A stretch of DNA of 64,000 bases from Bacillota bacterium (GTDB lineage: Bacteria > Bacillota > Dethiobacteria > Dethiobacterales > Dethiobacteraceae): positions 1 to 64,000 of the forward strand of contig JAAYMK010000032.1 of assembly GCA_012521405.1 (NCBI GenBank). The letters are read 5' to 3'. Positions 41,437-50,722 of this stretch are shown here, one piece after another (the stretch's first letter is position 1; the number at the start of each line of letters is the position of its first letter). The notes under the pieces are model-generated. The model made no database searches and had not been told where the DNA came from. It saw only the letters and a program-made list of their open reading frames with translations. The translations under genes and the position numbers were made by a program.

Positions 41437-41466
41437 TTTACACGATTTGTGTATACATGTTATACT
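41437..41466 (+). promoter_or_regulatory. Candidate promoter with operator-like inverted repeat before the redox operon
   Basis: TTTACA (41437-41442), an 18-base spacer and TATACT (41461-41466) resemble a sigma-A promoter. GTATA-CATGT-TATAC (41451-41465) is an inverted repeat overlapping the -10 hexamer. ACAC and GTGT (41440-41452) form another short inverted pair. A repressor could bind here; none is identified. Confidence 0.4.
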
Positions 41467-41553: not shown

Positions 41554-41841
41554 ATGGGGTTACGCGCCTATCTTTTAGTGGCAGTTACTGATGACTGCAA
41601 AGATGAGTTTTTTCAGGATTTAATGGCAGAAATTAAAAATTTCGCTGAAGTTGATTTTGCCGACCCGGTTGTGGGGGCAGCCGATCTCGTGATTATGGTT
41701 GAGGCAAACAACTTGGAAGCTGTGGCGGAAAAAATCGCCGCTTTAAAAGGAGTGGACAAGGTAGAAATTTTACGCGTAACCAGCGTCCTGGAAAGACATC
41801 GTACGTCCAAAACGGCGCTGCTGCAAAAACTTCAAGCCTAA
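41554..41841 (+). CDS. Stand-alone Lrp/AsnC-type ligand-binding (RAM/ACT-like) protein
   Basis: A 95-residue protein resembling the C-terminal effector domain of Lrp/AsnC regulators, starting MGLRAYLLVAVTDDCKDEFF. It has no helix-turn-helix. The pattern of alternating strands and helices (VEANNLEAVAEKIAALKGVDKVEILRV) fits this small dimeric alpha/beta fold, which in other proteins binds amino acids. It comes 34 bases before the NuoE-like gene, with GGGAAAGGAG before its ATG. It probably senses a metabolite and may regulate enzyme or expression in this operon; that link is inferred from position. Confidence 0.75.
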   Translation: MGLRAYLLVAVTDDCKDEFFQDLMAEIKNFAEVDFADPVVGAADLVIMVEANNLEAVAEKIAALKGVDKVEILRVTSVLERHRTSKTALLQKLQA

Positions 41842-41875: not shown

Positions 41876-42421
41876 ATGAGAAAAGAAACAAATTTGGCCG
41901 TCAAGGATCCTCTGGCTGCCATTGATGCCATTGTCCGGCGGCATAATATCACTGCCGGAGCCACCATTCCCATCCTTCAGGAAATTCAAAATACTTTTGG
42001 TTTTGTTGCTCCGGAAGCATTAACTCGCATCTCTGATCTTACCGGAATTCCGGAAAGTGAATTGTACAGTATTGTGACTTTTTATGCCCAATTTCGCTTA
42101 CAGCCCATGGGCAAAAACATAATTAGTGTCTGCCACGGCACTGCCTGCCACCTGGCCGGTGCAGAAAAAGTAACGGAAACAATTCAGTTTGCCGCCGGCG
42201 CCAAGCCGGGAGAAACCAGTGCAGACGGATTGTTTAGCCTGGAAAAAGTGGCCTGTTTAGGTTGTTGCAGTTTGGCTCCCGTGGTCAACGTTAACGATGA
42301 AACACACGGGCGTGTGACACCGGACAAAGCCCAGGCACTGATTCAGTCCCTGCGTGAAGCGGACCAGAAAGAAAACAGTGGTAGCAAGGGGGAGAGCCGG
42401 AATGGGAAACCAGCCGTATAA
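41876..42421 (+). CDS. nuoE: NuoE/HydC-like [2Fe-2S] subunit
   Basis: A 181-residue thioredoxin-fold [2Fe-2S] protein of the 24-kDa complex I subunit family. The four ligand cysteines are Cys86 and Cys91 (CHGTAC) and Cys127 and Cys131 (CLGCC). In electron-bifurcating enzymes such as HydABC, its counterpart transfers electrons beside the NADH-binding NuoF-like subunit. Its stop overlaps the next start by 20 bases. The symbol refers to the family; the organism shows no complex I genes here. Confidence 0.92.
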   Translation: MRKETNLAVKDPLAAIDAIVRRHNITAGATIPILQEIQNTFGFVAPEALTRISDLTGIPESELYSIVTFYAQFRLQPMGKNIISVCHGTACHLAGAEKVTETIQFAAGAKPGETSADGLFSLEKVACLGCCSLAPVVNVNDETHGRVTPDKAQALIQSLREADQKENSGSKGESRNGKPAV

Positions 42422-44204
42422 AGTAAGAGTAGGCATGGGTACCTGCGGCATTGCCGCCGGTGCCAATAAAACGTATGAAGCCATTCTGCCCTTATTACAG
42501 GAGCAGGGAATAACGCCCGTTAAAACCGGCTGTATGGGTATGTGTTACAAGGAACCGCTGGTGGAGGTAATTACCGCCGACGGAAAAAGTTATCTCTACG
42601 GCAATGTGGGTCCCAAAGAAGCAGAAACCATCGTACAAGAGCATATTGTCAACAACAAGCCCGTCAAAGAGCTTTTAGTCCTGGCGGATGAAGAGAAAAC
42701 TGAGCATGCTCCCTTTATGGAAAAACAGCACCGCATGCTGTTGGCACATTTAGGTCGCATAAATCCAGAAAGCATTGAAAGCTACCTGGAAGTGGGCGGT
42801 TATGAGGCTACCAAAAAAGCCATCGGTACCATGACACCGGAAGAAGTTATTGCCGAAATTGAAGCTTCCGGCCTGCGCGGCCGCGGCGGTGCCGGTTTCC
42901 CCACCTATATGAAGTGGAAGCTGACACGGGAAGCCGAAGGTGAGCAAAAATATGTGGTCTGCAACGCCGACGAAGGAGATCCCGGCGCTTTTATGGACCG
43001 CAGTATTCTGGAAAGTAACCCCCATGGGGTTTTAGAGGGCATGATTATTGCCGGATACGCCATCGGAGCAACGGAAGGTTATATTTATTGCCGGGCCGAA
43101 TATCCGCTGGCTATCCGCAACTTAAAAAAGGCCATTGCCGATGCCACCGCCCATGGATTTTTAGGGGAAAATATTTTAGGTTCCGGCTTCAATTTTAGCA
43201 TTCAAATTCGTGAAGGTGCCGGTGCCTTTGTGTGCGGTGAGGAAACTGCCCTTTTAATGTCCATTGAAGGTAAAAGAGGGATGCCGCGTTTCCGGCCGCC
43301 CTACCCGGCCCAAAAAGGTCTTTTTGGCCATCCCACCTGTATTAATAACGTGGAAACACTGGCCAATATTCCCTGTATTATTGCCCGCGGTGCGGAAGCT
43401 TACAGTGCTTTAGGTACGGAAAAAAGTAAAGGCACTAAAGTTTTTGCCCTGGCGGGAAAAGTTAAACGGGGCGGTTTGGTGGAAGTGCCCATGGGGTTGA
43501 CCATTAATGAAATCGTCTTTGATATCGGCGGCGGTATTTCCACCGGCAAAGCCTTTAAGGCGGTACAAACCGGCGGTCCTTCCGGCGGATGTATCCCGGC
43601 TGCTTTAGGGGATACCCCCGTTGATTATGATTCCCTGCAAGCCATAGGCGCCATTATGGGTTCGGGCGGTATGCTCATTATGGATGAAGAAACCTGTATG
43701 GTTGATGTGGCACGCTTTTTCTTAAGCTTTACCTGTGAAGAATCCTGCGGTAAATGTACCTTCTGCCGTGCCGGTACAAAGAAAATGCTGGAGATTTTAG
43801 AGGCCATCACCGAAGGCAGAGGTACGGAAAGCGATATTGATTTATTAGAACAGTTGGCGCACCAGGTAAAGGCCGGTTCTATGTGCGGTTTAGGGCAAAC
43901 GGCACCTAATCCGGTTTTAACAACAATCAAGTATTTCCGTGACGAATATCTAGCCCATGTCCGGGAAAAACGCTGCCCGGCTAAACAATGTAAAGCATTG
44001 ATCTACTACGAAATCGATCCGGAAAAATGTGTGGCCTGCGGTCTTTGCCGCCGCAACTGTCCTGTTAATGCCATTAGCGGAGCCAAGAAAACGCCGCATG
44101 TCATAGATCAGGAAAAATGCATTCGCTGTGGTCTGTGTGTCAACAGTTGCAAGTTTGACAGCATTGAAGTAAAATCAGGCAAACCGGAAACTGCAGTACA
44201 GTAA
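42402..44204 (+). CDS. nuoF: NuoF/HydB-like NADH- and FMN-binding subunit
   Basis: A 600-residue soluble iron-sulfur flavoprotein. An N-terminal thioredoxin-like domain has three cysteines (15, 44, 48). The NuoF core has the FMN/NADH motif GRGGAGFPT (160-168) and a [4Fe-4S] site at Cys449, 452, 455 and 495. The C terminus carries two ferredoxin clusters (Cys543/546/549/553 and 573/576/579/583). This is the HydB/BfuB architecture rather than that of complex I NuoF, which lacks both extensions. The ATG at 42402 has AGGGGGAGAG upstream. It precedes the large fusion gene by 32 bases. Confidence 0.93.
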   Translation: MGNQPYKVRVGMGTCGIAAGANKTYEAILPLLQEQGITPVKTGCMGMCYKEPLVEVITADGKSYLYGNVGPKEAETIVQEHIVNNKPVKELLVLADEEKTEHAPFMEKQHRMLLAHLGRINPESIESYLEVGGYEATKKAIGTMTPEEVIAEIEASGLRGRGGAGFPTYMKWKLTREAEGEQKYVVCNADEGDPGAFMDRSILESNPHGVLEGMIIAGYAIGATEGYIYCRAEYPLAIRNLKKAIADATAHGFLGENILGSGFNFSIQIREGAGAFVCGEETALLMSIEGKRGMPRFRPPYPAQKGLFGHPTCINNVETLANIPCIIARGAEAYSALGTEKSKGTKVFALAGKVKRGGLVEVPMGLTINEIVFDIGGGISTGKAFKAVQTGGPSGGCIPAALGDTPVDYDSLQAIGAIMGSGGMLIMDEETCMVDVARFFLSFTCEESCGKCTFCRAGTKKMLEILEAITEGRGTESDIDLLEQLAHQVKAGSMCGLGQTAPNPVLTTIKYFRDEYLAHVREKRCPAKQCKALIYYEIDPEKCVACGLCRRNCPVNAISGAKKTPHVIDQEKCIRCGLCVNSCKFDSIEVKSGKPETAVQ

Positions 44205-44236: not shown

Positions 44237-47200
44237 ATGCCAAAAGTGCAAATTTGGATCGATGAAAAAGAAGTTTGGGCAGAAGAAGGCAGTAATCTCC
44301 TGGAAGCTGCATTGGCTGCCGGTATTCATATACCCCATCTTTGCCACGATCCACGGCTGAAACCGTTCGGTTCCTGCCGCCTCTGCTTTGTGGAAATTGA
44401 AGGCAGACGCGGCCCGGTACCGGCTTGTGGCAATATTGTGCAAGCAGGCATGAAAGTAACCACCAATAATGAAACTATCCGTGCCTTGCGTAAAAAGGCA
44501 TTGGAATTGTTAATGACAGAACACTGTGGCGATTGTGTTGCCCCTTGTCAGTTGGCTTGCCCGGCGCATATTGATATTCAAGGCTTTATTGCCCATATCG
44601 CCAATGGCCGGCGCGATGCCGCCGCCGCGCTTATTAAGGAACAGCTGCCTTTTCCTTCCGTGTGCGGCCGCGTTTGCCCGCGCTTTTGTGAGGCAGAGTG
44701 CCGTCGCAATATTGTAGATGAACCGGTAAATATTTGCGCCTTGAAGCGGTACGCCGGTGACTATGATTTGGTGAATTATAACAAGTATGCGCCTACACCT
44801 TTGCCTCCCACCGGTAAAACAGTGGCCGTGGTGGGCGGGGGTCCCGCCGGTTTGACGGCAGCCTACTACCTGGCGCTGATGGGCCATGCTGTTACCATTT
44901 ATGATAGAGGCCCGGAACTAGGCGGGATGCTGCGTTACGGCATTCCCGAATACCGCCTGCCCAAAGCAACCTTGGATCAGGAAATAAAACTGATTACCGA
45001 TTTATGTGCCGAGGTGCGTTTAGGCCAGGTTTTTGGCCGGGACTTTACCCTGGAATCTTTACAAGAAGCATATGATGCCGTCTTTTTAGGTTTGGGCAGT
45101 CAAGCGGCGCAGATGCTGGGTCTGGAAAATGAAGATACCCCAGGTATCTTAAACGGTATTGGTTTTCTGCGTGCTGTGGCAGAAGGCAACCCGCCGGATA
45201 TTGGCCGGAATGTGGTTGTGGTGGGCGGCGGTAACACCGCCATGGATGCTGCCCGCACCGCCATCCGCCTGGGCGCAGAAAACGTCACTGTTGTTTATCG
45301 CCGTGGCCGTGAAGAAATGCCGGCCAATATTGTGGAAATTGAAGAAGCGGAAGAAGAAGGAGTTAAATTCCAGCTTTTAGCCAATCCCACCGGTTATATT
45401 TGCAGTCCCGACCATGTGGAAGGTGTGGAATGTGTGCGCATGGAACTGGGTGAACCTGACGCTTCTGGTCGTCGTCGTCCCATTGCCGTGCAAGGTTCAG
45501 AGTTTACCCTGCCTGCCGATACGGTGATTTTAGCCATTGGGCAAAAACTGCAAGCGGAAGAAGTGACAAGCTGTGGCCTTTTAATTTGCGACCGCGGCAA
45601 TGTGAAAGCGGATGAAAATACAGGTGTCACCAGTATCCCCGGCGTTTTTGCTGCCGGCGACTGCGTCACCGGACCGAAAACGGTGGTGGAAGCGGTGGGA
45701 GCGGCCAAGCGGGTGGCCCTGGCCATGGATCAATACCTGCGGGGTGTGGAAATTACGCCCGAGAAGCAGGAATTTAACTGCACCATGGGCGAACACTGGC
45801 AAGAGATTAACCCGGCATATTTTGCTGACCGGGAGAAAATTGCCCGCAGAAATGAAGTCCTCCTAAAAGCGGCGGAGCGCAAAACTAACTTTAAAGAATT
45901 TAATTTAGGTCTGACGCCGGAAATGGCCAAGAAAGAAACAGAACGTTGCCTGTCTTGCGGTTGTCAGGATGCCTTTGACTGCAAACTGCGGCTCTATGCC
46001 GGTGAATACGAAGTAGATATTAAGCGTTTAGGAACCCAGGAAAAACGCTACGAAATCATTACCGGCGATTATATCGTGCAAGACGAAAATAAATGTATTC
46101 TCTGCGGTAATTGTGTGCGCATTTGCCAGGAAGTGCAAGATAACGGTGTGATGGGTTTTGTTAACCGTGGTTTCGACACCACCGTCAAACCCAATATGGG
46201 TGTACCCCTTGCGCAAACACAATGTGAATCCTGCGGTCAATGTCTTTCCGCCTGCCCAACCGGTGCATTAACGGCGGCAAGTATTTTGGCCAAACCTGGT
46301 CCCTTCAAAGACGACCGCGTTGTGACTACCACTTGCACCATGTGCAATACCGGCTGCACCCTGGAGCTGCATATTGCAGCAGACACCATTACCAAAGTTA
46401 CTTCACCCTTACGCACCGGCCATAATGACGGCAACCTCTGCAACTTGGGGCGTTTTGCCGATAGAATCGTGCACGATGAAAATCGTCTGACTAAACCGCT
46501 TGTGCGTGATGGTGCTACCCATAAGGAAGTTAGCTGGGAAAAAGCTGTGCAAATTACCGCCGGTATTTTGGCGGAAGCACAAAAATATCAAGGTGCCGAC
46601 GGTATAGCCGTGCTGGTTTCTCCGGCTTTAACCAACGAGGAAAACTACTTGGCACAAAAATTTGCCCGTACTGTTCTTGGTACTAATAATATTGAAAGCA
46701 CAAATCCTGTGCCTGAACTGCTGCCGGTCAAAACTGCCACCTTTGCCGAGGTAGAAGCAAGTGATTATATTTTACTGGTAGGGGAAGATATTACTCTGGA
46801 CTTCCCCATTGTGGCGCAAAAAATCCGCAAGGCTGTGGAAAATGGTGCTCAACTGGTGGTGCTGGCCGAAGAACCTACACGTCTGGATAAGTTTGCGCAC
46901 CACACCCTTTTAGTTAATTTCCACCGCCTGCCGGAAGTTCTCCTGGTCCTGTACGCCTGGGGGAAACAAAAAGGTCTGTTGACGCCGACGGCGCAACTTC
47001 CTTACGCCGGGGAAGATTTGCAGCGTTTAATTAACGCACTGCCCAACATGGTGCGCGTCAAAGCGGACAAAGTTACAGGAATGCTTGCTGATTTTGCCGC
47101 GGCTAAACGTCCTGTCATTATTGCCAACGGCGACAGCCTCGGAGATGAAGAACATTATCTTTTAAATGAAATCCTTGCCGGCACCGGCAAGACCGGTCAA

Positions 47201-47746
47201 GGCAGTGGCCTTGTCTGCCTCTATCGTGGCGGCAACGCCTACGGGCAGACGGAAATGGGAGTTCACCCCGATCTGCTACCGGGCCGCCTGCCCGTAAACA
47301 GTAAAGAGGCACAACAAAAAGTAGGCTACCTGCTGCCGCAACTTTTAGAGAAAGCAAGCCGTAATGAAATTTTAGCCCTGGTGATTCTGGGTGATGATTT
47401 CATCCTCTCACCCGAAATCATTGGTAAAGATACCATGGTTGTGGTGGCCGCCAGCACCTGGCGCGATGATTTGGCTTTAGCCGATGTAGTACTGCCCTTG
47501 GCTACCTTTGCCGAAAGCGACGGTACCGTTATTAACTGTGAAGGCAGGCTGCTTCCGGTTAATGCCGCCCTGGAACCTTTTGGCGGTAAAAACAACTTGG
47601 AAATCATCTATGATTTGGCGAAGGCTCTAGGCAAACCTTTGTCCCAGCAGTCCGCAGCAGAGATCCTTGCTGAAGCAAAGGCAGCGGGAGCTTTGCAGAT
47701 AGTTGCTGATGACCTCGCCAGCGACGAAGCAGACGCCATTGCTTAA
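44237..47746 (+). CDS. Fused NuoG-like/GltD-like/ferredoxin/degenerate molybdopterin oxidoreductase
   Basis: A 1169-residue multidomain redox protein. Order: [2Fe-2S] domain (Cys36, 47, 50, 64); GltD-type N-terminal cluster region (Cys97-155); a GltD/NfnB-like flavoprotein with GGGPAG (200-205) for FAD and GGGNTA (330-335) for NAD(P); an extra CLSCGC motif (571-576). Then two [4Fe-4S] clusters (Cys620-630 and 663-673), then a molybdopterin-oxidoreductase-like part with a fourth cluster (Cys700, 703, 707, 735). Where formate dehydrogenases hold the metal-binding Cys/Sec, this protein reads GTNNIEST (815-822), so a catalytic Mo/W site is unlikely. No C-terminal cofactor barrel is apparent. It probably conducts electrons between NAD(P)H sites and ferredoxin in a complex with NuoE/NuoF. 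Confidence 0.85.
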   Translation: MPKVQIWIDEKEVWAEEGSNLLEAALAAGIHIPHLCHDPRLKPFGSCRLCFVEIEGRRGPVPACGNIVQAGMKVTTNNETIRALRKKALELLMTEHCGDCVAPCQLACPAHIDIQGFIAHIANGRRDAAAALIKEQLPFPSVCGRVCPRFCEAECRRNIVDEPVNICALKRYAGDYDLVNYNKYAPTPLPPTGKTVAVVGGGPAGLTAAYYLALMGHAVTIYDRGPELGGMLRYGIPEYRLPKATLDQEIKLITDLCAEVRLGQVFGRDFTLESLQEAYDAVFLGLGSQAAQMLGLENEDTPGILNGIGFLRAVAEGNPPDIGRNVVVVGGGNTAMDAARTAIRLGAENVTVVYRRGREEMPANIVEIEEAEEEGVKFQLLANPTGYICSPDHVEGVECVRMELGEPDASGRRRPIAVQGSEFTLPADTVILAIGQKLQAEEVTSCGLLICDRGNVKADENTGVTSIPGVFAAGDCVTGPKTVVEAVGAAKRVALAMDQYLRGVEITPEKQEFNCTMGEHWQEINPAYFADREKIARRNEVLLKAAERKTNFKEFNLGLTPEMAKKETERCLSCGCQDAFDCKLRLYAGEYEVDIKRLGTQEKRYEIITGDYIVQDENKCILCGNCVRICQEVQDNGVMGFVNRGFDTTVKPNMGVPLAQTQCESCGQCLSACPTGALTAASILAKPGPFKDDRVVTTTCTMCNTGCTLELHIAADTITKVTSPLRTGHNDGNLCNLGRFADRIVHDENRLTKPLVRDGATHKEVSWEKAVQITAGILAEAQKYQGADGIAVLVSPALTNEENYLAQKFARTVLGTNNIESTNPVPELLPVKTATFAEVEASDYILLVGEDITLDFPIVAQKIRKAVENGAQLVVLAEEPTRLDKFAHHTLLVNFHRLPEVLLVLYAWGKQKGLLTPTAQLPYAGEDLQRLINALPNMVRVKADKVTGMLADFAAAKRPVIIANGDSLGDEEHYLLNEILAGTGKTGQGSGLVCLYRGGNAYGQTEMGVHPDLLPGRLPVNSKEAQQKVGYLLPQLLEKASRNEILALVILGDDFILSPEIIGKDTMVVVAASTWRDDLALADVVLPLATFAESDGTVINCEGRLLPVNAALEPFGGKNNLEIIYDLAKALGKPLSQQSAAEILAEAKAAGALQIVADDLASDEADAIA

Positions 47747-50536: not shown

Positions 50537-50578
50537 AGTATCCAAATCGGTATGCTGGAAAATAAAATATTTTTGCAT

Positions 50579-50722
50579 TCTTATCAAGAGAGGTGGAGGG
50601 ACTGGCCCAATGAAACCCGGCAACCCCAGGAAACTGGAAGGTGCCAATTCCTGCAGGATTATCCTGACAGATAAGAAGGTAGGCAAGACAATTAACCTCT
50701 TCTGTTCAGGAAGGGGTTTTTT
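50579..50722 (+). promoter_or_regulatory. SAM-I (S-box) riboswitch with terminator
   Basis: The P1 stem TCTTATC/GATAAGA (50579-50585 with 50670-50676) encloses the conserved core. The core has AGAGAGGTGGAGGGA, the kink-turn, TGAAACCCGGCAACC and a GGTGCCAATTCCTGC segment. A downstream hairpin (50694-50702 with 50710-50718) followed by a T-run is the terminator. High SAM should stabilise the aptamer and stop transcription of metY-metX. The alternative antiterminator was not modelled. Confidence 0.95.

Follow-up and report, generated by a model that had tools for sequence, protein, structure and literature searches.

A single-frame 1169-residue fusion protein of a Bacillota bacterium is very probably the StnC subunit of a StnABC (NfnABC) transhydrogenase

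Which enzyme is built around a protein that joins NuoG-like, GltD/NfnB-like, ferredoxin and degenerate molybdopterin domains in one chain? This domain order was proposed by the initial annotation for a 1169-residue fusion in the 64,000-nucleotide stretch of Bacillota DNA that was analysed (the window), and both the single frame and the order were borne out. The gene at 44237-47746 is one uninterrupted, ATG-initiated frame with 0 internal stops, and the Pfam domain search returned, from the N-terminus, Fer2_4 (3-78), Fer4_20 (94-177), Pyr_redox_2 (195-489), Fer4_Nqo3 (610-679), Molybdop_Fe4S4 (694-746) and Molybdopterin (750-1129, 92 bits). The gene and its parts are as follows.

44237..47746, + strand: predicted stnC (NfnA-large / BfuA of Nfn-Bfu), a single frame with matches to solved relatives
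44243..44470, + strand: [2Fe-2S] NuoG-type domain (PF13510 Fer2_4; Cys36/47/50/64)
44516..44767, + strand: GltD-type cluster domain (PF14691 Fer4_20; His96, Cys100/104/108/147/151/155, Lys170)
44819..45703, + strand: FAD and NADP(H) two-Rossmann domain (PF07992 Pyr_redox_2; GGGPAG 200-205, GGGNTA 330-335, Arg240)
46064..46273, + strand: 2x[4Fe-4S] NuoG/ferredoxin-like domain (PF22117 Fer4_Nqo3; Cys620/623/626/630 and 663/666/669/673)
46316..46474, + strand: molybdopterin oxidoreductase [4Fe-4S] domain (PF04879; Cys700/703/707/735)
46484..47623, + strand: degenerate molybdopterin (FdhF-like) domain (PF00384; aligned with the genome's own selenocysteine FdhA)

The solved proteins closest to this chain were 9bov_A (863 bits), 8oh5_C (S. 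ovata StnC, 722 bits) and 9n5u_A (“NfnA”, 660 bits). The scores for these three Stn/NfnABC complexes were far above those of formate dehydrogenases and hydrogenases, and the matches that followed them in the structure search spanned single modules only. The features of Stn/NfnABC were found together at this locus, namely the stnA-stnB-stnC gene set, the NuoG [2Fe-2S], GltD/NfnB, 2x[4Fe-4S] and FdhF-like parts of the large subunit, the Lys170 ligand, the arginine near the FAD and the inactive Mo site. Judged from the sequence, 44237-47746 very probably encodes StnC of StnABC (NfnABC, Nfn-Bfu), the NADH-dependent ferredoxin:NADP+ oxidoreductase. Two points count against the assignment: the similarity to the assayed enzymes is moderate only, and Ile replaces Cys114 of S. 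ovata. Work published in 2020 purified and assayed the Stn complex and gave it its name (PMC7483475); a structure followed in 2023 (PMC10482914), and the complex has been classed as Nfn-Bfu within the Bfu family (PMC9304861). The protein is therefore already known in kind, an ordinary member of a family characterised biochemically and structurally.

A chain of this composition could also be produced by an assembly error or a frameshift that fused two genes. No point in support of this reading was found, and it was rejected: the search for the same fusion in other genomes found an equal full-length frame, open and uninterrupted, in 23/60 related genomes (the search's own count, with the window's own genome included among the 23), in relatives of 39-88% identity, and solved proteins with lengths of 1172 and 1178 aa contain the same fusion. 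Because so many related genomes encode the same uninterrupted protein, chance, frameshift and a missed stop are excluded, and the probability left to an artefact is practically nil. A second StnC group (L024-L030), about 40% identical and about 1240 aa long, was also observed within the class, and even within the family, to which the near group belongs; it carries Ala at position 114 and lacks Cys97/143/167.

The StnC alignment showed which residues have been retained. The four [2Fe-2S] cysteines, the His, the six Cys and Lys170 of the GltD-type region, the CxxCxC(x5)C set (Cys 571, 574, 576 and 582), the C-terminal [4Fe-4S] site, and the FAD and NADP motifs with Arg240 were invariant in 23/23 sequences, and the cysteines of the dicluster domain (620-673) were conserved in 22-23/23. 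Throughout the alignment the cluster ligands were thus conserved, bar two Cys in one relative. The invariant residues include Lys170, the unusual residue that ligates cluster C7 in S. ovata, and Arg240, which corresponds to S. ovata R239, the arginine near the FAD. As in S. ovata StnC, the arrangement of cysteines is consistent with one [2Fe-2S] and six [4Fe-4S] clusters, and not with the five or six Fe-S motifs counted at the outset. The alignment against the FdhA of the same genome suggests that His96 on one side and Cys571/576/582 on the other correspond to a NuoG His/Cys cluster whose two halves have been split by the GltD insertion. Integration of a GltD module into the NuoG-type part has been described by Kremp et al.

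The position of S. ovata Cys114, which helps to tune cluster C7, bears on whether the complex bifurcates electrons at all. A StnABC-like NADPH oxidoreductase that does not bifurcate, for example a sulfur or oxygen reductase or a simple NADH:NADP+ transhydrogenase, would agree with the loss of this cysteine and with the same domain fusion in Thermococcus litoralis NsoC (PMC7483475), and an NADPH-dependent sulfur or oxygen reductase was the first proposal for Thermococcus NsoABC. Two homologues whose activity is poorly known were reported to have Val or Ile at the same position (PMC10482914, 2023). However, StnB has lost neither its C-terminal clusters nor its other conserved cysteines, and bifurcation has been shown for a close archaeal relative, that of T. 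sibiricus (PMC9304861), which makes a non-bifurcating enzyme very unlikely. The bifurcating Stn/NfnABC transhydrogenase is also what the two neighbouring genes indicate.

41876..42421, + strand: stnA, HydC/NuoE-like [2Fe-2S] subunit, 181 aa (PF01257; matches to solved relatives)
42402..44204, + strand: stnB, HydB/NuoF-like subunit, 600 aa (PF01512, PF10589 and two C-terminal [4Fe-4S] motifs)

The stnA and stnB frames share 20 bases, and stnB starts with ATG. The closest solved chains were 9bov_B (867 bits), 9n5u_B (838) and 8oh5_B (811) for StnB, and 9n5u_C, 9bov_C and 8oh5_A for StnA. The subunits of Hyd hydrogenases trailed these top matches by smaller margins than they did for StnC, as is expected from the shared core. 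StnB adjoins StnC in all relatives found, and stnA lay upstream in 19/19 relatives whose upstream stretch was long enough to show it. StnB retains the N3-type cluster, and it shares Cys525/530 and the two C-terminal [4Fe-4S] sets with all homologues. The features of the BfuABC (HydABC-type) family are present, with the FMN domain, the N3-type cluster and the C-terminal 2x[4Fe-4S] in BfuB and the [2Fe-2S] in BfuC. The extra C-terminal clusters of the StnB type are present in bifurcating Bfu enzymes and absent from their non-bifurcating relatives (PMC9304861). From the matches of all three genes and the conserved gene order, it follows that the window carries an stnABC operon.

The molybdopterin-like end raises a further question, whether StnC could be the alpha subunit of an Fdh-Bfu formate dehydrogenase that keeps Mo/W catalysis and has gained an NADPH module. 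The Molybdopterin (92 bits) and Fe4S4 domains speak for this, and S. ovata StnC itself carried a formate dehydrogenase annotation. StnC was compared with the genuine formate dehydrogenase of the same genome.

Contig C136, L004 973-3651, - strand: selenocysteine formate dehydrogenase with an in-frame TGA (GTNNVDHCARL-Sec-HSPT; PF01568 present)

The Sec of this enzyme aligned with Pro826 of StnC (46712-46714), so that the Mo/W ligand column holds proline, and the His that follows the ligand was also gone; both were missing in all aligned StnC homologues. The Mo-dinucleotide-binding cap domain PF01568, present in the FdhA, was not found in StnC by the Pfam search. These three losses bear out in substance the earlier claim that the Mo/W site is degenerate, but the motif on which it had been based, GTNNIEST (815-822), stops just short of the ligand column. 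With ligand and cap domain both missing, the reading as an active Mo/W enzyme was rejected. Moreover, the intact selenocysteine enzyme is separate and adjoins its own StnB/HydB-like subunit, forming an Fdh-Bfu enzyme, and S. ovata Stn was without formate activity (PMC7483475). A formate dehydrogenase at 44237-47746 is thus extremely improbable. In S. ovata StnC the FdhF-like domain is catalytically inactive, and after its deletion no functionally active complex could be purified (PMC10482914). In the Stn/NfnABC complex of the window this end would not take part in metal catalysis and may serve assembly or stability.

The initial annotation had suggested a soluble bifurcating NADH/NADPH/ferredoxin enzyme formed with the two upstream subunits. 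This agrees with the predicted Stn/NfnABC assignment, and it fits the best explanation because the complex is a transhydrogenase of this kind. The two pyridine nucleotide sites that it had placed in the fusion hold for the complex as a whole; StnC has one NADPH/FAD site, the NAD(H)/FMN site lies in StnB, and so, probably, does the ferredoxin site. The sequences show directly the order of genes and of domains, and that the cluster and nucleotide motifs are all conserved. The direction of electron flow, the site of bifurcation and the oligomeric state would be those of the solved or assayed homologues, in which the reduction of NAD+ plus ferredoxin is driven by NADPH, with no formate activity (PMC7483475, PMC10482914), and the FMN of StnB bifurcates while the FAD of StnC does not (PMC10482914). 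By analogy, the FAD in StnC's GltD/NfnB-like part would accept a hydride from NADPH, and the [4Fe-4S]/[2Fe-2S] chain of the same subunit would relay single electrons to the FMN in StnB. The split may occur there, gated by the [2Fe-2S] of StnA, with one branch leading to NAD+ and the other to ferredoxin by way of the ferredoxin-like domain at the C-terminus of StnB. The predicted net reaction is 2 NADPH + NAD+ + Fd(ox) <-> 2 NADP+ + NADH + Fd(red), and the reverse direction would yield NADPH.

The host genome, a 2.1-Mb draft, was consistent with this function. NfnAB was not found in it, the only match to the DHODB-type domain (PF10418) being PyrK beside PyrD; this matches a survey of acetogens in which Stn and Nfn proved almost mutually exclusive (PMC7483475). 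The genome encodes formate-tetrahydrofolate ligase (Fhs), two copies of acetyl-CoA synthase (AcsB), RnfC and an AcsE-like methyltransferase, the last named from its sequence. A further pair of genes was located as follows.

Contig C67 near 70 kb, L008: HydB-like and [FeFe] hydrogenase HydA genes, the third enzyme with a NuoF-like core

Fhs, the two AcsB, RnfC, Fdh-Bfu and HydAB are the setting in which Stn works. The finding of StnC alters no concept. It adds a genome with two other Bfu enzymes, a formate dehydrogenase and a [FeFe] hydrogenase, to those that encode the Stn/NfnABC transhydrogenase, and three enzymes on one NuoF-like core represent clear modular reuse within a single genome. Elsewhere in the window, a SAM riboswitch was detected at 50578-50677 (+) with 100.6 bits, and methionine-biosynthesis genes (sulfhydrylase-like and homoserine acetyltransferase-like) lie downstream of it.

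The only detail of the locus that looks unreported is a small frame that precedes stnA and shares a promoter-like site with it.

41437..41466, + strand: promoter-like site TTTACA-18-TATACT with TG (consensus scan, 10/12 matches; sequence likeness alone)
41554..41841, + strand: small ORF, 95 aa, Lrp/AsnC ligand-domain-like, no HTH (PF01037 E 4.7e-5, below its cut-off)

The 95-aa ORF and the stn genes are probably in the same transcript. In the 60-genome search the ORF was present in the window's genome and in ten others, all of one bacterial family and always just upstream of stn, and it was absent from the StnC-bearing genomes of other families; no second copy was found in the host genome. The members share the invariant motif EVD(F/Y)xDPVVG...ERHR, and 6/10 of them showed weak likeness to the Lrp/AsnC ligand domain. 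Confidence in the single-sequence structure model was low, with a mean pLDDT of 63.6, and its matches to ACT/Lrp-like folds were weak, the best with E 3e-3. A comparable small partner was absent from the published Stn descriptions examined. We tentatively propose that in this one family the stn operon might start with a dedicated Lrp/AsnC-like protein, possibly a ligand-sensing regulator or an assembly or regulatory partner of Stn.

Among the known systems, classical NfnAB shares the GltD-like NADPH/FAD module with StnC but lacks the NuoE, NuoF and NuoG parts, and it is NfnAB's own FAD that bifurcates. The NfnA/NfnB/NfnC complex (9N5U/9N5V) contains the same fusion as StnC to about residue 810, whereas its NfnA is a shorter form of 963 aa with about 200 residues fewer at the molybdopterin-like end. 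S. ovata StnABC (8OH5/8OH9; PMC7483475, PMC10482914) has the same three subunits in the same domain order, and its StnC of 1172 aa, compared with 1169 aa here, likewise ends in an inactive FdhF-like part. The two StnC proteins have K170, the R239 equivalent and all cluster ligands in common; they differ in the exchange of Cys114 for Ile and in the C-terminal third, which is weakly conserved in sequence. The highest-scoring solved relative for both StnC and StnB was NfnABC of Caldicellulosiruptor saccharolyticus (9BOV/9BP5, identified as such in a citing paper that names 9BP5), from which the complex of the window differs, as far as compared, in sequence divergence only.
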